Below are positions 6,348-49,866 of a stretch of DNA of 64,000 bases, piece after piece. The notes under the pieces were generated by a model that worked only from the letters and a program-made list of their open reading frames with translations, made no database searches and was not told the origin of the DNA. Positions within the stretch are counted from its first letter, which is position 1. Each line of letters starts with the position of its first letter. The stretch is from NCBI RefSeq assembly GCF_000021565.1, contig NC_012440.1, positions 760,210-824,209 of the forward strand, in the 5' to 3' direction. Position numbers and translations under genes: made by a program. The stretch is from Persephonella marina EX-H1 (lineage in GTDB: Bacteria > Aquificota > Aquificia > Aquificales > Hydrogenothermaceae).

Positions 6348-7420
6348 GAGTTTTTACAGCTATTTTTTTAAAGGAGATAGTTACATTCCTGAGGAACTGG
6401 GGTCTTGTAATTGTCCTGATATACTCCTTTACACTTGATGTTTATATAGCAGGTCAGGGTTTTGAGGTTAAACCGAGGAATGTTTCTGTAGGCTATGTTG
6501 ATTACAGCTCAGGTGTGATATCAAAAAAGATACTGTCACATCTTCATTCACCGGAGTTTAAAGAGCCTGTAAGGTTTAACTCCCAGGAAGAGCTCAGCAG
6601 AGCTATATTTAACAGGGAGATAATTGTTGGTCTTGTATTTGAACCTGATTTTGAGAAAAATTTTTATGAGGGAAAGGCAACACTCAACATCCTTTTAGAC
6701 TCAACAGCAGCAGCACAGGCGTATATAACACTGTCATATCTGAGAAATATTATTCTGAGATTTTACAAGTATGAGATTCATGTTGAGATAAAAACACATA
6801 AGCTTTTTAACCAGAATGCAGACACAAGGAAATTTATCTCATTCTCAGAGTTCCTCTCAATAGTGACACTTATAGGTGTTATTCTTTCAGCTGTTGTCTT
6901 TGTGAGGGAAAAGGAGAACGGGACATGGGATATAATGCTTTTAACACCTGTTGATCCAAAGCTTATAATACTTGCAAAAACATTCTCTCAGATGGTCATT
7001 GTTATGGCTGGAACTGTTGTATCTGTCGGGACGGTTCTGTTTGGTGTTTTTGATGTTCCTATAAATGGAAGCTTTACAGTTTTTATACTCTTCACATTTG
7101 CATTTCTTTTTGCGGTAACAGGTATAGGTCTTTTTATAGCATCTGTAGCAAGAAGTATGCTTCAGGTTGCCCAGCTTTCTGTTGTTATCATGATGCCTAT
7201 GATCTTTTTAAGTGGTGCATGGACTCCTATACATTCAATGCATCCATTTATCCAGTACCTGTCTTATATATCCCCCCTCAGATACTATATAGAGGGTAGT
7301 TTAAGTATATTTTTTAGAGGAATCCACTCTTCAGATCTAATCCCTTACTTTGTTGCATTGACAGTTCTTAGTGTAGCCCTTTACATATTTGGGTTCAGAA
7401 AGATAGGAAAGCTTTTTTAA
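6344..7420 (+). CDS. ABC-2 type export permease (YbhS/YbhR family), second subunit
   Basis: This permease (358 aa) is a paralogue of the gene just upstream. It has an N-terminal helix, an extracytoplasmic domain, and C-terminal helices including the coupling segment VREKENGTWDIMLLTPV. The conserved proline-rich region MPMIFLSGAWTPIHSMHP is typical of drug-export ABC-2 subunits. It starts in the ATGA overlap with its partner and ends the operon. A short dyad that may act as a weak terminator follows its stop. Confidence 0.87.
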   Translation: MRVFTAIFLKEIVTFLRNWGLVIVLIYSFTLDVYIAGQGFEVKPRNVSVGYVDYSSGVISKKILSHLHSPEFKEPVRFNSQEELSRAIFNREIIVGLVFEPDFEKNFYEGKATLNILLDSTAAAQAYITLSYLRNIILRFYKYEIHVEIKTHKLFNQNADTRKFISFSEFLSIVTLIGVILSAVVFVREKENGTWDIMLLTPVDPKLIILAKTFSQMVIVMAGTVVSVGTVLFGVFDVPINGSFTVFILFTFAFLFAVTGIGLFIASVARSMLQVAQLSVVIMMPMIFLSGAWTPIHSMHPFIQYLSYISPLRYYIEGSLSIFFRGIHSSDLIPYFVALTVLSVALYIFGFRKIGKLF

Positions 7421-7501: not shown

Positions 7502-8359
7502 ATGGGAAAGATTGTAGGTCTTGTAAACCAGAAGGGAGGTGCTGGAAAGAGCAGTATTACAAATGCTCTTTCAAATGAGTTTGCAAGAAGGGGTTACAGG
7601 GTTCTTGTTGTTGATTACGACCCACAGGGAACCCAGACAATGCTATTCGGTTACAACAGACTTTCACAGTTTATAGGCACAGAGCATGATATGACAAATA
7701 TCTTTAACGGAAAGGATCTAAACCCCATATCTGTTAAGGAAAATCTTGATCTTTTACCTGCAAACCCAAATCTGAGAGAGGAAGCTGAAAGCGGAAAGAT
7801 GGGAAAAGAGCTTGTTCTTTCAAACTTTCTGAGAGGTGGATTTGGTAAAAAAGGTATAGCGGAGGATTACGATATCGTTTTTATAGACTCACCTGCTGAT
7901 TCTGGTGCTTTAACTGTAGGAACGATAGCTGCAAGCGATTATGTTCTTATACCTACAAGGCTGACTTTTGTTGACTCAACAGGACTTGTTGGGACTCTCC
8001 AGACAATCATACAGGCTGTTATCACATTCAGACTTGATCTCTCAATTCTTGGATTTATACCTGTAGCTTACAAATCAAGACTGAGAGAGCATAACGATGT
8101 TCTTGCCTCACTGAAAACGACGATACCCCAGATACTATCAAAGCATGATTTTATAAAAACAGCTTCTGAGGAGCTTTTCCTTGAGCCTTTAAAAGACCGT
8201 ATAGCATGGGCTGAGGCAGCAGGGAAAAGGGTCTCAATCAGGGAGTATATAGAGAAGGAGAAAAAAGGTCAGAGGGATATACTTCTCTCACTTGAGAACA
8301 TAACTGATGAGATTATAAGAAGGGTTATGATCCATTCAGAGATTGGTGTGGAGGTGTAA
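7502..8359 (+). CDS. parA: ParA-type partition ATPase
   Basis: This cytoplasmic DNA-partition ATPase (285 aa) works with the ParB encoded four bases downstream. The deviant Walker A KGGAGKS is at residues 11-17, and Walker A' (VVDYDPQGTQT) and Walker B (VFIDSPAD) follow. An AAGGAGAG ribosome site precedes the ATG. ParA/MinD-type ATPases share this fold, but pairing with parB supports partition. It is adjacent to, and upstream of, the type II secretion operon, with no origin-like sequences visible nearby. Confidence 0.88.
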   Translation: MGKIVGLVNQKGGAGKSSITNALSNEFARRGYRVLVVDYDPQGTQTMLFGYNRLSQFIGTEHDMTNIFNGKDLNPISVKENLDLLPANPNLREEAESGKMGKELVLSNFLRGGFGKKGIAEDYDIVFIDSPADSGALTVGTIAASDYVLIPTRLTFVDSTGLVGTLQTIIQAVITFRLDLSILGFIPVAYKSRLREHNDVLASLKTTIPQILSKHDFIKTASEELFLEPLKDRIAWAEAAGKRVSIREYIEKEKKGQRDILLSLENITDEIIRRVMIHSEIGVEV

Positions 8360-8362
8360 GTT

Positions 8363-9316
8363 ATGGATTTAGGAATTTTTGATGATATTCTTGAAACACC
8401 AAAGGCAAAGAAGATAAAAGAGATAAAACAGACTATAGAAGAGGTCAAACCTGAAGAGATACCTATATCCAGGATAAAGAGTCCAAGATTCCACGACAGA
8501 AGTTATGTCTCACAGGAAAGGATAGCATCCCTTGCTGAGAATATTAAGGAGTTTGGACTTGCCCAGCCTATAGTTGTAAGGAAGCTTGAAGATGGAAGTT
8601 ATGAGAGGGTGATAGGTTATATAAGACTGAAGGCATTTGAGTATCTTGGAAGGGATAAAATCCCGGCGATAGTTCTTGATATAGATGAGGAAACAGCACT
8701 TGCACTTATGATATCTGAGAACGCCCAGAGGGAAGACCTTAACGATTACGACAAGCTTATGTCACATCTTGAGTATCTCTCCTTCATACTTGGAACTGAT
8801 AAAGATGAGGTTATAAGGGTTGCAAGAAAGATATTTAACTACATATCAGGAAATATTAAGGAGCTTCCAGATGAGGACAGGAGAAGGGGTCAGGTGATAG
8901 AAAAGACACTCCAGAAACTTAGCGGAACAAACCTCAGAACCTTTATAGAGAGACTTAAGATCTTAAATGTTGCTGAGGAGATAAAGGATGCTATAAAAAA
9001 ATACGGCTGGTCTTACAGCCTCGCCATAGAGGTAAACAAACTGAGAAGCTACCCTGATAAGATGAGACAGCTTATTGATGAGATCATCATGAATGATCTT
9101 ACAAAAAAGGAGGTTGAGATAAGGGTCAGAGAGATACTTGGTGAGGAAGCGGCAAAAAGGGTTAAAAATCCGTTTAAGGAGTCCTTCAGGGAGATAAACA
9201 AAAAGGTTTCCAGAATTTACAGTAAACTACCTGAGAAGGAGAGAAGTAAGGTTGAGAGAATTATACAGAAAAAGCTCTCAGAGATAGAACAGTTACTTGA
9301 AAGGTATGAGATTTAA
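8363..9316 (+). CDS. parB: ParB-type partition protein, non-canonical CTP-binding motif
   Basis: This DNA-binding partner of ParA has 317 aa. The ParB/Srx-like N-terminal domain shows the LAENIKEFGLAQPIVV and ENAQREDLN motifs (the latter matches the canonical ENLQREDLN). The usual GERRxRA motif reads GYIRLKA here, so the CTP-binding arginines are partly replaced. A central helix-turn-helix region and a basic coiled C-terminus follow. It lies four bases after parA. A full parS palindrome was not found in the window. It may be a plasmid-type or accessory ParB instead of the main chromosomal Spo0J. Confidence 0.82.
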   Translation: MDLGIFDDILETPKAKKIKEIKQTIEEVKPEEIPISRIKSPRFHDRSYVSQERIASLAENIKEFGLAQPIVVRKLEDGSYERVIGYIRLKAFEYLGRDKIPAIVLDIDEETALALMISENAQREDLNDYDKLMSHLEYLSFILGTDKDEVIRVARKIFNYISGNIKELPDEDRRRGQVIEKTLQKLSGTNLRTFIERLKILNVAEEIKDAIKKYGWSYSLAIEVNKLRSYPDKMRQLIDEIIMNDLTKKEVEIRVREILGEEAAKRVKNPFKESFREINKKVSRIYSKLPEKERSKVERIIQKKLSEIEQLLERYEI

Positions 9317-42288: not shown

Positions 42289-42305
42289 TACTATTAAATA
42301 TAGTT
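42289..42305. promoter_or_regulatory. BlaI-type operator copy 1 (lipoprotein side)
   Basis: TACTA-N7-TAGTT differs from the two other copies by one base in the right arm. It lies 35-51 bases upstream of the minus-strand lipoprotein start and overlaps a TATATT that could be its -10. Confidence 0.5.
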
Positions 42306-42350
42306 TTTTAAATTTTAAAGAAAAAGTGAAAAATACCTGTATAATCCCCC

Positions 42351-42379
42351 TTGAAAAATTGAATATTTTTGTTTATATT
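42351..42379 (+). promoter_or_regulatory. Sigma70-type promoter of the metal-efflux operon
   Basis: TTGAAA (42351-42356) and TATATT (42374-42379) are 17 bases apart. The predicted start, about 42386, lies within operator copy 2. The first gene starts at 42414. Confidence 0.7.
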
Positions 42380-42381
42380 AT

Positions 42382-42398
42382 TACTACATTAAATAGTA
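42382..42398. promoter_or_regulatory. BlaI-type operator copy 2 (efflux operon start site)
   Basis: TACTA-CATTAAA-TAGTA is a perfect dyad that covers the predicted transcription start, directly before the AAGGAG ribosome site. The flanking bases also match copy 3 (ATTACTACATT...TAGTA). Confidence 0.7.
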
Positions 42399-42413
42399 AA
42401 AAGGAGATTCAGC

Positions 42414-42809
42414 ATGAGGAGAATATCTTTTACAGCCATTCTACTACTCTTGGTAGGATTTACAGTTTTTTCCTGTACAAAAAAAGAGGCGTACAAGAAA
42501 GAACTAATCTCGGACAGTTATAAAGTGGTTATAGTTTCAGACCAGCCGCCCCATGTGGGAGTAAACAAATGGAAGGTGTATGTTTATACAAAGGATGGTT
42601 CAGCTGTTACTGATGCTTCCGTTAAAATTAATGGTTACATGCCTCCAATGCCGGGAATGCCTGAGATGAGTTTTGATTATCCTGTTAAAAATACTGGACA
42701 ATTTTATGAAAGTGATGTAAATCTATCTATGAGTGGAACATGGCAGATAACCATAGTTGTTGAAAAAGGTGGCAAGAAGGAAAGTATAAAGTTTGGATTT
42801 AATTTATAA
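42414..42809 (+). CDS. Met-rich lipoprotein, YtkA/FixH-like domain
   Basis: This lipoprotein (131 aa) has a signal peptide ending TVFSC (Cys21). The mature domain (about 35-131) is a YtkA-like beta fold. The loop GYMPPMPGMPEMSF (around residues 76-89) has four Met, a typical arrangement for Cu(I) or Ag(I) handling. It is first in the efflux operon and may act as periplasmic metal carrier. The start codon is backed by AAGGAG and the promoter/operator just upstream. Confidence 0.78.
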   Translation: MRRISFTAILLLLVGFTVFSCTKKEAYKKELISDSYKVVIVSDQPPHVGVNKWKVYVYTKDGSAVTDASVKINGYMPPMPGMPEMSFDYPVKNTGQFYESDVNLSMSGTWQITIVVEKGGKKESIKFGFNL

Positions 42810-42825
42810 CCGAAAGGAGCAGGAA

Positions 42826-43257
42826 ATGGTATTGGAATTTTTCAAGAAAGGGTTTAAAAGCCTGAAATTTAAAAAAGACAGGCCCACCCCTCTTGGTGAT
42901 CTTGAAGAGAAAGTTATGAACGTTCTTTGGAAAATAGGAAATGGGACGGTAAGAGAAGTTAGAGAGCAGTTAAATGAGAATTTGGCACATACTACAGTTA
43001 TGACAATACTGGACAGACTTTACAAGAAGGGTCTTTTAAAAAGGATTAAAGAAGGTAAGAGCTACAGATATTTTCCTTTAATATCAAAAGAGGAATTTGA
43101 GAAGAAGGTTGCTGAAAAGGTTATTACAGATATTATCAGATCTCATCCGGAGACAGCTATAGCTGCATTTGAAGGTGCAATTGAAAAACTTTCCGAGGAA
43201 GAGATATACCATCTCAAAAAAATGATTGAAGAGAAAATGAGAGATGAAAAAAAGTGA
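42826..43257 (+). CDS. BlaI/MecI/CopY-family repressor
   Basis: This winged-helix repressor has 143 aa from the chosen ATG. The DNA-binding domain (about 20-85) includes LGDLEEKVMNVLWKIGNGTVREVRE and AHTTVMTILDRLYKKGLLKR, typical of BlaI. A C-terminal dimer helix follows. It lacks the Cys-box CxCxxxxCxC that makes CopY a copper sensor, so induction must come through the protease encoded next door. ATG 42826 has GGAG upstream; an earlier in-frame ATG at 42793 overlaps the previous gene. It overlaps the M56 gene by 14 bases. Confidence 0.88.
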   Translation: MVLEFFKKGFKSLKFKKDRPTPLGDLEEKVMNVLWKIGNGTVREVREQLNENLAHTTVMTILDRLYKKGLLKRIKEGKSYRYFPLISKEEFEKKVAEKVITDIIRSHPETAIAAFEGAIEKLSEEEIYHLKKMIEEKMRDEKK

Positions 43258-44050
43258 TCTAATATTTGTGATCTTTCTATCTGTGGTAGGTTTATACTTT
43301 TATTATTACTACTTCCTTATTACGACAGCACCTACCTGGATTATTGATCTGAAAAACTGTTTTATTGAGATGGACTTTTTACCGTTTCTGGAAAACCATC
43401 TGAACATATTTCTATACCTATCTCTGCTTGTGATCTCCAGTTTTCTTATAGTTAAAACTATCTTTTCTCTTTTCAGATCCATTTTTGGTTACTTTAAGCT
43501 TAACAGTTATATAAATAGAAATCTTTATAAAAGATTTAAGAATCTTTATATCATCAACTCAGATCAGATCGTCGCTTTTAATACGGGATTTTTTAAAAGG
43601 AAGATAGTTATATCAAAGCAGATACTTGACATCTTTTCAAAGGATGAGAAAAAAACCGTTTTCCTCCATGAAAAAGGACATCTGAAAAATGGCGACAGCT
43701 ATAAACTTTTTATATTCTCTGTTCTTGTTAATCTTTTTCCAAAAAAGCTCGCAGATAAACTTCTTAAAGATTTTTCCCTCCTTAAAGAGATTGAAGCTGA
43801 TATGTTCTGCGTATCCGACAGAAAAAAAGTTGAGCTTGCAAACACAGTATTGAGATTTTATACATACAGGACAGGTGTTTCCGTTCCTATGATGAACAGT
43901 TATTTAAGCCAGAGAATTCAGTTTTTACTCGGTCATCTTTCATATGAGGATTTCAAGGTAGAAAGGGTTTATCTCAGTTTTTCTCTCCTTCTTACTGTCT
44001 TTATACTGTTTTCTTACGTCTTTAATTACTGCCTGTGTAGTATGCATTAG
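43244..44050 (+). CDS. M56 (BlaR1-like) membrane metalloprotease without a penicillin-binding sensor
   Basis: This predicted membrane protease (268 aa) has four TM helices (about 6-26, 55-80, and two near 150-165 and 245-265). The zinc motif is HEKGH (142-146), with the second acidic ligand in EIEAD about 45 residues later. It is the BlaR1 protease module only; the C-terminal penicillin sensor is absent, so the signal is unlikely to be a beta-lactam. Pairing with BlaI suggests it cleaves the repressor when the metal signal arrives. The sensing mode is unknown. Confidence 0.82.
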   Translation: MKKSDLIFVIFLSVVGLYFYYYYFLITTAPTWIIDLKNCFIEMDFLPFLENHLNIFLYLSLLVISSFLIVKTIFSLFRSIFGYFKLNSYINRNLYKRFKNLYIINSDQIVAFNTGFFKRKIVISKQILDIFSKDEKKTVFLHEKGHLKNGDSYKLFIFSVLVNLFPKKLADKLLKDFSLLKEIEADMFCVSDRKKVELANTVLRFYTYRTGVSVPMMNSYLSQRIQFLLGHLSYEDFKVERVYLSFSLLLTVFILFSYVFNYCLCSMH

Positions 44051-44059
44051 GAGTTTTAG

Positions 44060-45295
44060 ATGAATATGAGAGGATACTTATTGGTAATAATTACTACATT
44101 GTTTAGTATAGCAATGGTATCTTACGGAGTAGATCTGAAGAGTATTATTGATGAAGGGAGAAAATCCAATCCAGAACTGATAAAGATAAAAGAAAGACTG
44201 AAAGTTTATCAGTATAAAAAGGAGTTTGAAGGTAGTCTTGAAGATCCTGTTGTGTCCTTCAGTATTACGGATATTCAGCTTTTCTATAGACCTTTTTCAA
44301 GGCAGATAGAGCCAATGCAGGCTGTTGTTATAGGTATCTCCCAGAAGATACCTTACTTTGGAAAGCTTGATCTGAAAGAGCAGATCGTCCAAAAAAAGTA
44401 CGACAGTGAGTATTACAGACTGAAAGCATCGGAGCAGAAGGTTTTAAAGAATATTTATATCTCTGCTTATAAACTGTGGAAGATTGATGAGAAACTGAAA
44501 ATAATAAAGAAGTATCAGGATGTTGCGTCACAGATCATAAAGCTCTCAAACACCCTTTATGCTGTAGGTAAATCATCACAGAGTGATGTTATAAATGCAC
44601 AGATATACTACACGCAGCTTAAGGAGATGGAGATAAACCTTAAGAACCTAAAAGAGAGGGTAAAGGCAAAACTTTCATCACTTGTAAACAGAGATATAGA
44701 AAGCGTGAGTCTTGATCTCCCTGAACCTGATGGAAAGCCTGATCTGTCACAGTTTATTGAAAGAATGAAAAATAACAGTCCTTATCTTGCCTACATAAAG
44801 GAGAAGATAAAGGAAAAGGACTACCAGATAAAGCTTTCTAAGAAGGATTACAGACCTGATTTCAGATTTTTTGCAAACTATGCCTACAGACAGGGATTTA
44901 ATGATTATCTTACAGTTGGAGTAAGTTTTAATATCCCAGTATGGCAGAAAAGCCGTCAGGATATGAAGGTTTTAGAGAAAACCCAGGAAAAAACTGTAGT
45001 ACAGAAGGAGTATCAGGAAAAGTTAACCGATCTTACATATCAGCTTGAGGATAGATACTACAAACTTAACGATGCTCTTCAGACTTATAGGCTTTTAAAG
45101 GATATATACATAAAACAGACTGAAAAGGGTTTTGAGAGCATAATAGCTGAGTATAAAGTGGGAAAGAAAAATATGATTGATCTTCTATACTCACTGAAAC
45201 AGATACTCTCTGTAAAACTGAAAATCATAGATGAGATATACAGCTACAACGAGGCATTAATTGAAATAAAAGAACTTTCAGGAGATTTAAAATGA
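44060..45295 (+). CDS. TolC-family outer-membrane efflux channel (CusC/CzcC type)
   Basis: This outer-membrane component (411 aa) of a tripartite metal pump has a signal peptide (about 1-23) and two long coiled-coil repeats (for example LKASEQKVLKNIYISAYKLWK and KTVVQKEYQEKLTDLTYQLEDRYYK), the TolC plan. It overlaps the adaptor gene by four bases. The signal peptide coding region contains a third copy of the BlaI-type dyad (44092-44108). The start could be ATG 44060 or 44066. Confidence 0.9.
   Translation: MNMRGYLLVIITTLFSIAMVSYGVDLKSIIDEGRKSNPELIKIKERLKVYQYKKEFEGSLEDPVVSFSITDIQLFYRPFSRQIEPMQAVVIGISQKIPYFGKLDLKEQIVQKKYDSEYYRLKASEQKVLKNIYISAYKLWKIDEKLKIIKKYQDVASQIIKLSNTLYAVGKSSQSDVINAQIYYTQLKEMEINLKNLKERVKAKLSSLVNRDIESVSLDLPEPDGKPDLSQFIERMKNNSPYLAYIKEKIKEKDYQIKLSKKDYRPDFRFFANYAYRQGFNDYLTVGVSFNIPVWQKSRQDMKVLEKTQEKTVVQKEYQEKLTDLTYQLEDRYYKLNDALQTYRLLKDIYIKQTEKGFESIIAEYKVGKKNMIDLLYSLKQILSVKLKIIDEIYSYNEALIEIKELSGDLK
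44092..44108. promoter_or_regulatory. BlaI-type operator copy 3 inside the tolC-like gene
   Basis: TACTA-CATTGTT-TAGTA lies within codons 11-16 of the outer-membrane channel gene. The 11 bases ATTACTACATT match copy 2 exactly. It might block an internal promoter or readthrough; no convincing promoter is visible beside it. Confidence 0.55.
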
Positions 45296-46482
45296 GCTGG
45301 AAAGGTTTGTTTATAGCTGTCACTCTTTTTGTTTTTGGGCTTGCTGTTGGCGTATTTACCCAGATAGGCTCTCAGATAATTCCTGTTATCCAGTCTTTTG
45401 TTGAAACTCAGCCGGCAGAGATACAGTCTGCAAAGCTTCCTGAAAGTAAGAACAAAAAGGGTATTCTGACGGTGGAACAGCTTTTTAATATAGATACTAC
45501 TGTAGTTTCCCATGTAGATCTGACAAAGAGGATAGAGACTTACGGTGAGCTTGTTCACCCTGAAACAGATGTGAGGGATATAACATTTAAGATAAACGGT
45601 TATGTTGAAAAGCTTTACGCTGATTACACCGGTAAATACATAAAAAAAGGTCAGCCTCTCCTGACAGTTTACAGTCCTGAGCTTGTGTCAGCACAGGAGG
45701 AGTTTATAAGAGCTTACGAGTACCTGTCACAGATAGAAAATGCTGATAATGGGATACTGAAAAAGACAGCTCAGGATATGTATGAGGCGGCTTACAAAAG
45801 ACTTTTATACTGGGATATAACACCCCAGCAGATAGAAAATCTGAAAAAAAGTAAAAAGGTTATGAAAACGCTCACTCTCTACTCCCCATATGACGGTTGG
45901 ATAATGGAAAAGTTTGTTAATCTTGGATCAAAGGTTGAGGCAGGAAAGCCCGTTCTGAGAATAGCAAAACATGAAAATCTATGGCTTATAGCCAAGGTTT
46001 ACGAACAGGATATCCCTTTTATAAAGAAAGGTCAGAAGGTTATGATACATTTTGAGTCCTACCCTGATCAGATCTATCACGGTGTTGTTGATTATATATA
46101 TCCTATGATGGATATAAGGAACAGAACTGTTGATGTGAGGATTGTTATTCCAAACCCTGAGTATAAGCTCATTCCCGGAATGTACTCAAACATACATATA
46201 GATATCCCATTAGGAAAACTTATGGTTCTTCCTGAGACAGCTGTTATTAACACAGGTAAGAAACAGGTTGTTTTTGTCCAGAAGGAGAAAGGGGTTTTTG
46301 AGCCTGTTTTTGTTAAGCTCGGAAGGTATATAGACGGATACTACGAGATACTGTCCGGTGTTGGTCACGGAACTGTTGTTGCAAACTCTGCACTGTTCCT
46401 TTTAGATGCTGATGCACAGTTGAAAGGAAAGTATCAGAAAGAAGGTGAGCAAAAACCTATGAAAATGATGCATCACCACTGA
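45292..46482 (+). CDS. RND metal-efflux periplasmic adaptor (CusB/CzcB type)
   Basis: This adaptor (396 aa) has an N-terminal TM anchor (about 7-28), a lipoyl domain with FKINGYVEKLYADYTGKYIKKGQPLLTVYSPEL, a short alpha hairpin, and a beta-barrel (LIAKVYEQDIPFIKKGQKVMIHFESYPDQ). The C-terminus ends MKMMHHH, likely metal-binding. The start overlaps the channel gene stop. It links the RND pump to the outer-membrane channel and, in CusB, also delivers Cu(I)/Ag(I). Confidence 0.93.
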   Translation: MSWKGLFIAVTLFVFGLAVGVFTQIGSQIIPVIQSFVETQPAEIQSAKLPESKNKKGILTVEQLFNIDTTVVSHVDLTKRIETYGELVHPETDVRDITFKINGYVEKLYADYTGKYIKKGQPLLTVYSPELVSAQEEFIRAYEYLSQIENADNGILKKTAQDMYEAAYKRLLYWDITPQQIENLKKSKKVMKTLTLYSPYDGWIMEKFVNLGSKVEAGKPVLRIAKHENLWLIAKVYEQDIPFIKKGQKVMIHFESYPDQIYHGVVDYIYPMMDIRNRTVDVRIVIPNPEYKLIPGMYSNIHIDIPLGKLMVLPETAVINTGKKQVVFVQKEKGVFEPVFVKLGRYIDGYYEILSGVGHGTVVANSALFLLDADAQLKGKYQKEGEQKPMKMMHHH

Positions 46483-46494
46483 TGGAGTCTGGAT

Positions 46495-49400
46495 ATGATT
46501 GAGAAGATAATAGAATGGTCTGTTAGAAATAAACTTATCGTTGTTTCCCTTTCTCTTATAGTACTTGGAGCATCAATATGGGCTTTAAAGAACACACCCC
46601 TTGACGCGATACCTGATCTATCACCGCCTCAGGTTATCGTTTACACAAAATGGCAGGGTCAGTCCCCTTCCGTTGTTGAGGATCAGATAACCTATCCTGT
46701 AGTCTCTACACTGCTGTCAGCTCCTGAGATAGAAACAGTTAGAGGGATATCCTCATTTGAGACTTCTGCTGTTTATGTGATCTTCAAAGAGGGAACTGAT
46801 ATATACTGGGCGAGGAGCAGGGTTCTTGAGTATCTTTCCCAGATAAAAGATAAACTCCCAAAAACTGCAGAGGTTACACTTGGACCTGACGCTACAGGTG
46901 TTGGATGGGTTTACCAGTACGCCCTTTATTCAGACAAGAGAAATCTGTGGCAGCTAAGAACACTTCAGGACTGGTATCTAAAATATACACTTCTTGGTGT
47001 TGACGGAGTCTCAGAGGTTGCATCTATAGGTGGTTTTGTTAAAGGCTACCAGATAACTTTAAATCCGCAGAAACTGAGAGCTTACGATATCTCACTTAAA
47101 CAGGTAATCAGTTCATTAAAAATGAATAACAATGACACAGGTGGGAGAATAATAGAGAGCAACGGATTTGAGTTTATAATTCAGGGTATCGGCTACATAA
47201 AAACACTGGATGATATAAAGGATATAACCGTTAAGATCACTCCAAACGGTATTCCTGTCAGGATAAAGGATATTGCAAGGGTTGAGCTTGTTCCTATGAA
47301 CAGAAGGGGTATGGCTGATCTGAACGGTCTTGGTGAGGTTGTTGGCGGAATAGTTGTGATGCGTTTTGGAGAGAACGCATACCAGGTTATACAGAGAGTT
47401 AAAGAGAAGATAAAAGAGATAAAGGAAAACCTCCCTGAAGATATAAAGATAATCACTACCTACGACAGATCACAGCTTATAGAGAAGGCTGTTAACACAC
47501 TTAAAAGAACATTGATTGAGGAGAGTATAATAGTTCTGATAGTTATAGGTATATTCCTTTTCCATTTCAGAAGTTCACTTGTGATCATTATCACTCTCCC
47601 ACTTGCTGTGATAACAGGATTTCTGTTTATGAAGTTCTTCAACATAACATCAAATATTATGTCACTTGGTGGAATCGCGATAGCGATCGGAGCTATGGTG
47701 GATGCTGCCATTGTTATGGTTGAAAATGCCCATAAACATCTTGAAAAGCTGAGAAAAGAAAAAGGTGAATACACAGACAGAGAGAGAATAGAAGCTATAG
47801 TAAAGGCAGCAAAACAGGTTGGAAGACCTATATTCTTTGCACTTCTCCTAATTGTTGTCTCATTTCTTCCCGTCTTTGCCCTCTCAGGTCAGGAAGGTAT
47901 GCTATTCAAACCCCTCGCCTTCACAAAGACATTTACAATGCTCGCAGCTTCAGTTTTTGCTGTAACACTTGTTCCTATACTTATGGTATGGCTTATTAAA
48001 GGAAGAATAGTATCTGAGGAAAAAAACCCGGTTAACTGGATACTTATAAAGATATACTCACCTATTATAAAACTGACATTGAAGGTGAGATATCTGGTCA
48101 TAATACTTGCTGTTGTTGCTATAGGAATGGTCTACCCGATATACAAAAAGCTGAGCTGGGAATTTATGCCTATGTTAAACGAACAGACATTTATGTATAT
48201 GCCTGTTACACCTTACGGCATATCTATAACACAGGCAAGGGAACTGACACAGCTTACGGATAAAATACTCGCATCTTTCCCTGAGGTTGATACAGTCTTC
48301 GGGAAAGCAGGAAGGGCTGAAACAGCTACAGATCCAGCACCCCTTTCTATGATTGAGACGATAATCACATTTAAACCGAAGGAGTACTGGAGAGAAGGTG
48401 TAACATTCCAGTCATTAATGCAGGAGATGGAAGAAAAACTCCAGGTTCCCGGGCTCACAAACAGCTGGACATATCCTATAAGGGGAAGGATAGATATGCT
48501 CCTTACAGGTATAAGAACCCCACTTGGTATAAAGCTTTACGGTGATGATCTTGATAAGCTTCAGGAGTATGCTGGAAAGATAGAGAAGGCTCTCCAGAAA
48601 CTTCCCGAAAGTATGTCTGTGTTCGCTGACAGAGTTGCTCAGGGATATTTCCTTAACATAAAGATAGACAGGAAAAAGATAGCAAGATACGGTCTTTCCA
48701 TTGAGGATGTTGAGAGTATTATTCAGATGGGAATAGGTGGAATGCCTGTTTCAACGATATACCACGGTCTTGAGAGGTATCCCTTACTTGTCAGGTATGA
48801 AAAGGATTACAGGGAGAATATTGAGGCATTAAAAAATCTTATAATTCCAACACCTGACGGCAGAGGTATACCGCTAAAGGCTGTTGCGGATGTATACTAC
48901 GACGAAGCCCCATCTGTGATAAAGTCTGAAAAAGGTATGAAGGTGGTTTTTGTATACATAACACCTCACCAGAATGTAACACCTGAAGAGTATGTGGAAA
49001 AAGCAAAAAAAGTTCTATCACAGATAAAACTTCCTCAGGGGTTCTTTATTGAGTGGGCGGGGCAGAGCCAATATTTAGAGCATGCAAAGGAAAGACTTAT
49101 GTATATCATACCTCTAACAGTGGCGATAATATTTTTACTCGTTTATTTCACATTCAGAAGTATAAAGAACACCCTTATTATTCTTCTGTCTATACCTTTT
49201 GCCCTTCTTGGTGGGCTGTGGTATATAGACTACCTGAACTTTAATATGAGTATAGCTGTTGTTGTTGGGTTTTTAGCCCTTTTAGGTGTTGCTGCTGAGA
49301 CAGCTATAGTAATGATAATATATCTTGAAGAGGCTGTAAAAAGCAGACTTAAACAGTTTAAAACGATAACGGAAAAACAGTTCTACGATGCGATATATGA

Positions 49401-49632
49401 AGGAGCTGTTCTCAGAATACGTCCAAAGATGATGACAGTTTCAGCCATACTTGCTGGTCTATTACCGATAATGTACATAACAGGTGTAGGGTCAGAGGTT
49501 ATGCAGAGGATCGCAGCACCTATGATAGGTGGTGTTGTAAGCTCTGCTATCCTTACACTTGTGATAATACCTGCTATATACACGGTCACAAAAAAGTATG
49601 AACTTAAAAGGAATAAACTGTTAAAATCTTAG
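46495..49632 (+). CDS. Heavy-metal RND efflux pump (CusA/CzcA family)
   Basis: This inner-membrane pump (1045 aa) exports metal with the proton gradient. Two RND halves each have a large periplasmic domain. The opening TPLDAIPDLSPPQVIVYTKWQGQSP is HME-RND-specific. The proton-relay helix GGIAIAIGAMVDAAIVMVEN carries the conserved Asp and Glu. Several Met lie along the periplasmic path (MPMLNEQTFMYMPVTP), in line with a Cu(I)/Ag(I)-type pump, but Zn/Co/Cd specificity cannot be excluded. It is the longest gene of the operon. Confidence 0.93.
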   Translation: MIEKIIEWSVRNKLIVVSLSLIVLGASIWALKNTPLDAIPDLSPPQVIVYTKWQGQSPSVVEDQITYPVVSTLLSAPEIETVRGISSFETSAVYVIFKEGTDIYWARSRVLEYLSQIKDKLPKTAEVTLGPDATGVGWVYQYALYSDKRNLWQLRTLQDWYLKYTLLGVDGVSEVASIGGFVKGYQITLNPQKLRAYDISLKQVISSLKMNNNDTGGRIIESNGFEFIIQGIGYIKTLDDIKDITVKITPNGIPVRIKDIARVELVPMNRRGMADLNGLGEVVGGIVVMRFGENAYQVIQRVKEKIKEIKENLPEDIKIITTYDRSQLIEKAVNTLKRTLIEESIIVLIVIGIFLFHFRSSLVIIITLPLAVITGFLFMKFFNITSNIMSLGGIAIAIGAMVDAAIVMVENAHKHLEKLRKEKGEYTDRERIEAIVKAAKQVGRPIFFALLLIVVSFLPVFALSGQEGMLFKPLAFTKTFTMLAASVFAVTLVPILMVWLIKGRIVSEEKNPVNWILIKIYSPIIKLTLKVRYLVIILAVVAIGMVYPIYKKLSWEFMPMLNEQTFMYMPVTPYGISITQARELTQLTDKILASFPEVDTVFGKAGRAETATDPAPLSMIETIITFKPKEYWREGVTFQSLMQEMEEKLQVPGLTNSWTYPIRGRIDMLLTGIRTPLGIKLYGDDLDKLQEYAGKIEKALQKLPESMSVFADRVAQGYFLNIKIDRKKIARYGLSIEDVESIIQMGIGGMPVSTIYHGLERYPLLVRYEKDYRENIEALKNLIIPTPDGRGIPLKAVADVYYDEAPSVIKSEKGMKVVFVYITPHQNVTPEEYVEKAKKVLSQIKLPQGFFIEWAGQSQYLEHAKERLMYIIPLTVAIIFLLVYFTFRSIKNTLIILLSIPFALLGGLWYIDYLNFNMSIAVVVGFLALLGVAAETAIVMIIYLEEAVKSRLKQFKTITEKQFYDAIYEGAVLRIRPKMMTVSAILAGLLPIMYITGVGSEVMQRIAAPMIGGVVSSAILTLVIIPAIYTVTKKYELKRNKLLKS

Positions 49633-49656
49633 TTAAAACTTCTGGAGGAAGTAAAA

Positions 49657-49866
49657 ATGAAAAGGATATTCTCTTCTCTGTTAACATTATTAATATTAAT
49701 AACTTTTTCTGTAGCATCTGATACTGACAGAGGTAAGGATATAAAACAGCTCAATATAGGTAAGCCATGCTGTTCAAATTGTGATGAAAAAAAGGTGGAG
49801 AAGCCTAATAAACCTTCATGTCCTAACTGTGCCGAATCTAAAAAGCCCTGCTGTAAAGATGGTTAA
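49657..49866 (+). CDS. Secreted Cys-rich small protein (putative metal-binding)
   Basis: This small exported protein (69 aa) has a signal peptide (about 1-21) followed by a Lys-rich, seven-Cys segment: KPCCSNC, SCPNC and KPCC. The Cys pairs and C-x2-C knuckles suggest thiol metal binding. A GGAGGA ribosome site precedes the ATG. It closes the metal-efflux operon and may buffer metal in the periplasm. I do not recognise a named family. Confidence 0.7.
   Translation: MKRIFSSLLTLLILITFSVASDTDRGKDIKQLNIGKPCCSNCDEKKVEKPNKPSCPNCAESKKPCCKDG

Follow-up and report, generated by a model that had tools for sequence, protein, structure and literature searches.

The BlaR1/BlaI and MecR1/MecI pairs of Staphylococcus aureus and the PetR/PetP pair of Synechocystis sp. 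PCC 6803 are the described systems closest to the locus analysed here, an operon of Persephonella marina EX-H1 that encodes a BlaI-family repressor and an M56 membrane metalloprotease together with a CusA-type metal pump. BlaR1 carries the signature H201EXXH/E242XXXD, its extracellular EL1 loop and C-terminal sensor domain relay the penicillin signal between them, and it cuts S. aureus BlaI at Asn101-Phe102 (PMC9834060). A role of BlaI/M56 pairs in metal response is already known from Synechocystis, where the copper-activated BlaR-type protease PetP is reported to degrade the BlaI-family regulator PetR (Garcia-Canas et al. 2021, through PMC7896320, PMC13421787 and PMC12292863). In CopY, copper is bound by the repressor itself via CxC pairs (PMC5772342). 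The operon was examined in a stretch of 64,000 nucleotides (the window; NC_012440.1, positions 760,210 to 824,209), in which all features given below lie on the + strand, and the order of the genes, the conservation of operators and residues, the members of the regulon and the protein fold were established by computation.

With the staphylococcal systems the locus shares a protease with HEXXH and ExxxD motifs and a BlaR1-like fold, a repressor with a Phe at the cut site, and an operator dyad, but its M56 protein has only 268 residues and a short CxC-Met tail in place of the penicillin-binding sensor. It resembles PetR/PetP in that a BlaI-family regulator adjoins an M56-type membrane protease; PetRP switches plastocyanin and cytochrome c6, whereas the Persephonella dyads mark genes of copper export and detoxification. 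Repressor family, palindromic operator and copper gene targets are those of CopY, while the window's BlaI is free of cysteines and the CxC lies on the partner protease. We consider it likely that this locus is a copper switch sharing the module of the penicillin-resistance switch, in which proteolysis of BlaI opens a copper regulon. The difference from PetR/PetP lies in a detoxification regulon instead of electron carriers, and in candidate sensor residues that PetP may or may not share; in a literature search on BlaI/M56 pairs linked to RND metal pumps, nothing relevant was found.

Every gene of the operon named in the original prediction is present, in the order ytkA-blaI-M56-OEP-MFP-RND, followed by a gene for a seven-Cys peptide. 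The first six, matched by Pfam or NCBIfam models, encode a YtkA-like Met-rich lipoprotein (42414..42809; PF13115, 87 bits), the BlaI-family repressor (42826..43257; PF03965, 106.6 bits against a cut-off of 22.6), the M56 metalloprotease (43244..44050; PF05569, 34.1 bits against a cut-off of 31), a CusC-like outer-membrane channel (OEP; 44060..45295; PF02321, 118 bits), a CusB-like membrane-fusion protein (MFP) with a C-terminus rich in Met and His (45292..46482; PF16576, 221 bits) and the heavy-metal RND pump (46495..49632; the CusA/CzcA model TIGR00914, 1103 bits against a cut-off of 701). The small secreted peptide of 69 residues (49657..49866) is probably encoded by the last gene of the operon; the 10 relatives checked showed no similar Cys-rich small gene downstream of the pump. 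Like CusCBA of Escherichia coli, the products are predicted to form a tripartite pump of the Cu(I)/Ag(I) type: the RND protein scored 1040 bits against CusA compared with 528 against the zinc pump ZneA, and alignment showed that the three CusA substrate methionines (M573, M623 and M672) are all retained, as M569, M619 and M668. Because of this better match and the three methionines, the pump is expected to transport Cu(I)/Ag(I). The E. coli cus genes are controlled by the two-component system CusRS.

Proposed operator dyads and their conservation

The proposed operator is a TACTA-N7-TAGTA dyad, and its main copy (TACTACATTAAATAGTA, 42382..42398) lies 15 bp before ytkA and directly after the -10 hexamer of a sigma70-like promoter, TTGAAA-17-TATATT (42351..42379). 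The dyad had been predicted to sit on a sigma70 start site, and it does abut this promoter. Promoter-like matches in the region occurred at chance level in the sigma70 scan, which was for that reason rejected as evidence by itself, and the promoter assignment rests on its position beside the conserved dyad. A second operator (TACTACATTGTTTAGTA, 44092..44108) is located inside the start of the OEP gene. These are the two perfect dyads of the window, where 0.14 would be expected from shuffled sequences, and both fall in the operon; two or more perfect dyads were reached by 4 of 100 shuffled windows. Of the three matching dyads originally described, those at 42382 and 44092 are thus perfect, while the one at 42289 is imperfect (TACTA...TAGTT). 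The latter was rejected as an operator, since it has a mismatch in one arm and one-mismatch sites are no more frequent in the window than chance would make them (14, against 14.7 expected by shuffling).

Of the class, 121 genomes were searched for BlaI orthologs and 16 had one, each of them a member of the window's family. The M56 profile, run against 136 genomes of the phylum, matched 21 in the family and, weakly, a single outlier; BlaI/M56 orthologs are confined to part of one Aquificota family. A survey of BlaI-M56-RND linkage in Aquificota genomes had been proposed, and in the relatives fetched (n = 15) the order ytkA-blaI-M56-OEP-MFP-RND was kept wherever the contigs extend far enough. 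Several contigs stop inside the operon, and the stretch fetched for one relative (L037) gave the first three genes only.

The dyad is conserved along with the operon, as the original prediction required of it. All 14 relatives with upstream DNA carry a perfect TACTA-N7-TAGTA before ytkA, as do 5 of 5 hold-out genomes that were unused in finding the pattern. The distance between dyad and ytkA ranges from 13 to 55 bp in 12 of the 14, and is 406 and 614 bp in the other two, where a DUF302-type gene intervenes (L040:6401-6781 and L027:2491-2880, the latter labelled by likeness), an arrangement that links DUF302 to the copper operon. In 8 of 13 genomes the second operator is kept at +25 to +32 of the OEP gene, with no more than one of its 10 arm bases altered. 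Its reading frame in the window differs from that in most relatives, so that different residues are encoded, which speaks for selection on the DNA.

One relative departs from this pattern. In L040 (G003), the M56 gene (about 7618-8400) contains an in-frame TAG and the ytkA frame is short (6988-7191); this genome also holds the sole CsoR match among the 34 family genomes, the window's own genome having none. Its switch may be decaying in the presence of a different copper regulator.

Genes preceded by the dyad outside the operon

The regulon had been limited to three sites within the window, which proved too few. The whole genome contains five perfect dyads, all at metal-type genes: in addition to the two in the YtkA-BlaI-M56-CusCBA operon, one lies 10 bp before the start codon of a Met-rich secreted protein, one 27 bp before the start of a secreted CCxxC protein (weak YHS match), and one 14 bp before the start of a 33-residue Met/His peptide, after which comes a CopB-like P-type ATPase whose start is rich in His. 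In several genomes (L008:1533-1634, L065 and L070) a membrane peptide of 33-34 residues rich in Met, His and Trp (MEGMGHGGMW...) stands between dyad and CopB ATPase. In relatives, dyads outside the operon precede a CopB ATPase, a multicopper oxidase, and Met-rich and Cys/Met-rich secreted proteins, and the hold-out genomes added a dyad-linked multicopper oxidase (G129) and a CopB (G134). Among the dyad-linked genes, Pfam supplied the labels for one pair of multicopper oxidases, one CopB and one peroxidase; the others were labelled by likeness across genomes and, in the case of the Met/Cys-rich proteins, by composition. Neither a beta-lactamase nor a cell-wall gene was among those at the dyads examined.

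Family genomes that lack the repressor served as a comparison. In the 18 genomes without BlaI, 30 dyads were examined, of which 26 are intragenic and not one stands before a copper gene. Three further dyads, in a genome with no match to M56 (G135), also fall within genes. The dyads of G072 outside the operon, all intragenic, were counted as chance. Clear copper-type genes were found at 17 of 45 non-operon dyads in genomes with BlaI and at 0 of 30 in those without (p = 4e-5, an indicative value uncorrected for kinship and based on unblinded labels). In the same way, a CopB ortholog (75-100% identity) is present only in genomes with BlaI (9 of 16, versus 0 of 18). At position 6 the likely true sites favour a pyrimidine, and their centre tends to be rich in A/T. 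From these targets, the regulon looks copper-specific and larger than three sites.

The repressor, the protease and a candidate copper site

The start of BlaI is most likely the ATG at 42826, which has a good ribosome site; a longer frame would open at an earlier TTG. The BlaI profile matched MecI/BlaI structures, while the CopY_TcrY model gave 63.9 bits, far under its cut-off of 121.95. The absence of the CopY copper-binding Cys box, noted originally, was borne out, with no cysteine in the window's BlaI or in the aligned relatives shown. F115 is invariant in the alignment of relatives and aligned with Phe102 of S. aureus BlaI, and A114-F115 (43165..43170), which aligns with the Asn101-Phe102 cut, is a candidate cleavage site.

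In the M56 protein, the active site HEKGH (43667..43681) is invariant as HExxH, and an invariant E182xxxD186 corresponds to E242XXXD of BlaR1. The AlphaFold2 model (mean pLDDT 89) found its best fold matches in the Protein Data Bank (PDB) among the BlaR1 cryo-EM structures, then Ste24p. The protein had been described as the protease module only, lacking any sensor. The HEKGH motif was confirmed, and Pfam and NCBIfam scans of its 268 residues showed no penicillin-binding sensor domain, but the description overlooks conserved Cys, Met and His residues outside the protease core. They are found in a predicted periplasmic loop between helices 1 and 2 (43325..43402), with invariant W32, D35, C39, M43 and H52, and in the C-terminal tail FNYCLCSMH (44021..44047), also predicted to be periplasmic, in which the alignment shows a conserved CxC followed by Met. 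C263 and C265 are present in every M56 sequence that reaches the C-terminus, with a Met two or three residues later, and the two complete hold-out sequences keep both loop and tail (CFCGVM and CLCGAM). Hydropathy and charge predict loop and tail to be outside, with six K/R and zero D/E after helix 2 and one K/R and four D/E in the loop. By comparison with BlaR1, the loop would take the position of EL1 and the CxC-Met tail that of the penicillin sensor, both holding potential Cu(I) ligands. This suggests that the loop and tail residues are a candidate periplasmic Cu(I) site that may trigger the cleavage of BlaI.

An M56 protein without a penicillin sensor was rejected as an unusual trait, as BlaI-adjacent M56 proteins lacking the penicillin-binding domain were common among the loci fetched from other phyla. 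None of those checked has CxC at the very C-terminus, and several have other cysteines in loop and tail. In BlaI-adjacent M56 proteins of Patescibacteria, Chloroflexi, Bacillota and Ca. Geothermocultor (L120, L128, L144, L141, L123, L115 and L135), cysteines were observed both in the N-terminal region and close to the C-terminus, and they suggest a wider class of loop-plus-tail sensors. In Ca. Geothermocultor (L141:2500-12500), a heavy-metal P-type ATPase that has two metal-binding domains is located some 3 kb away from two BlaI/M56 pairs. Tentatively, and with less than even confidence, BlaI-linked M56 proteins without a penicillin sensor may in general be receptors for metals or thiols, their ligand being held between the loop that takes the place of EL1 and a short tail at the C-terminus; in the present protein this would be Cu(I), through C39, M43, H52 and CxC-Met, and the cysteines of other phyla would be variants for other ligands.

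A proposed copper switch and its rivals

In the proposed switch, BlaI dimers would bind the TACTA-N7-TAGTA dyads at the promoter and silence the copper regulon, that is, the YtkA-BlaI-M56-CusCBA operon and, depending on the genome, a CopB ATPase, a multicopper oxidase, and Met/Cys-rich secreted proteins. Rising periplasmic Cu(I), possibly also Ag(I), would be bound by M56 via the C39, M43 and H52 loop and the CxC-Met tail. Metal binding would activate the cytoplasmic zinc site of M56, and the activated protease would cut BlaI, probably at A114-F115, opening the regulon. Since blaI and M56 sit within the operon, the switch would reset once copper drops. Repression, metal identity, metal binding, and cleavage with its site are the steps that we infer. 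Metal efflux controlled by proteolysis through the dyads, as originally proposed, is favoured by the comparative evidence, namely a dyad kept with the operon, copper-type targets only in genomes with BlaI/M56, and a CusA-type pump.

Several observations weigh against this scheme. The M56 protein is divergent (29-51% identity) and barely over the Pfam cut-off, and the identity of the metal is deduced from target genes, among which the Met/Cys-rich ones carry no Pfam name. Dyads also precede diheme cytochrome c peroxidases in four genomes (L058, L061, L079 and L082, all with BlaI) and a TlpA-like gene in one, targets that a response to copper alone would not need and that leave room for a redox signal. 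M56 might accordingly sense thiol redox or envelope stress via a disulfide between loop and tail, copper genes responding as copper damage is the usual cause, and the large share of cysteines in the conserved M56 set would fit such a sensor. We nevertheless regard this as unlikely, given that most of the extra targets are copper-type and that the conserved Met and His suit Cu(I) better than disulfide exchange. Perfect dyads arise by chance a few times per genome in the control counts, and the dyads could be fortuitous or belong to a different regulator that has nothing to do with the window's BlaI; their conserved place before ytkA, their absence from copper-type genes in family genomes without BlaI, and the resemblance of their arms to known BlaI-family operators (cop box TACAxxTGTA) make this very improbable.

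The two remaining explanations concern the signal and where it is received. BlaI could be the copper sensor, as CopY of the same repressor family is through its C-terminal CxC pairs (PMC5772342), with M56 merely tuning the repressor level, but a repressor that is Cys-free here and in the aligned relatives shown leaves little credence for that. Finally, the best-known role of BlaI/BlaR1 pairs is in beta-lactam resistance, and the pair could respond to beta-lactams or cell-wall damage with control of the pump incidental; with no penicillin-binding domain in M56, and with dyads at copper-type genes and none seen at a beta-lactamase or cell-wall gene, we give this almost no weight. The copper switch is the reading that we prefer.

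BlaI/M56 pairs without a penicillin sensor are common in bacterial genomes. The Persephonella system comes with a defined regulon and a precise operator, relatives that lack the pair serve as its natural control, and the candidate residues make a short list. If the copper switch is true, the site through which an M56 protease receives a copper signal would be open to direct testing, and copper control by repressor proteolysis would reach beyond the cyanobacterial plastocyanin switch to copper detoxification in thermophilic Aquificota.

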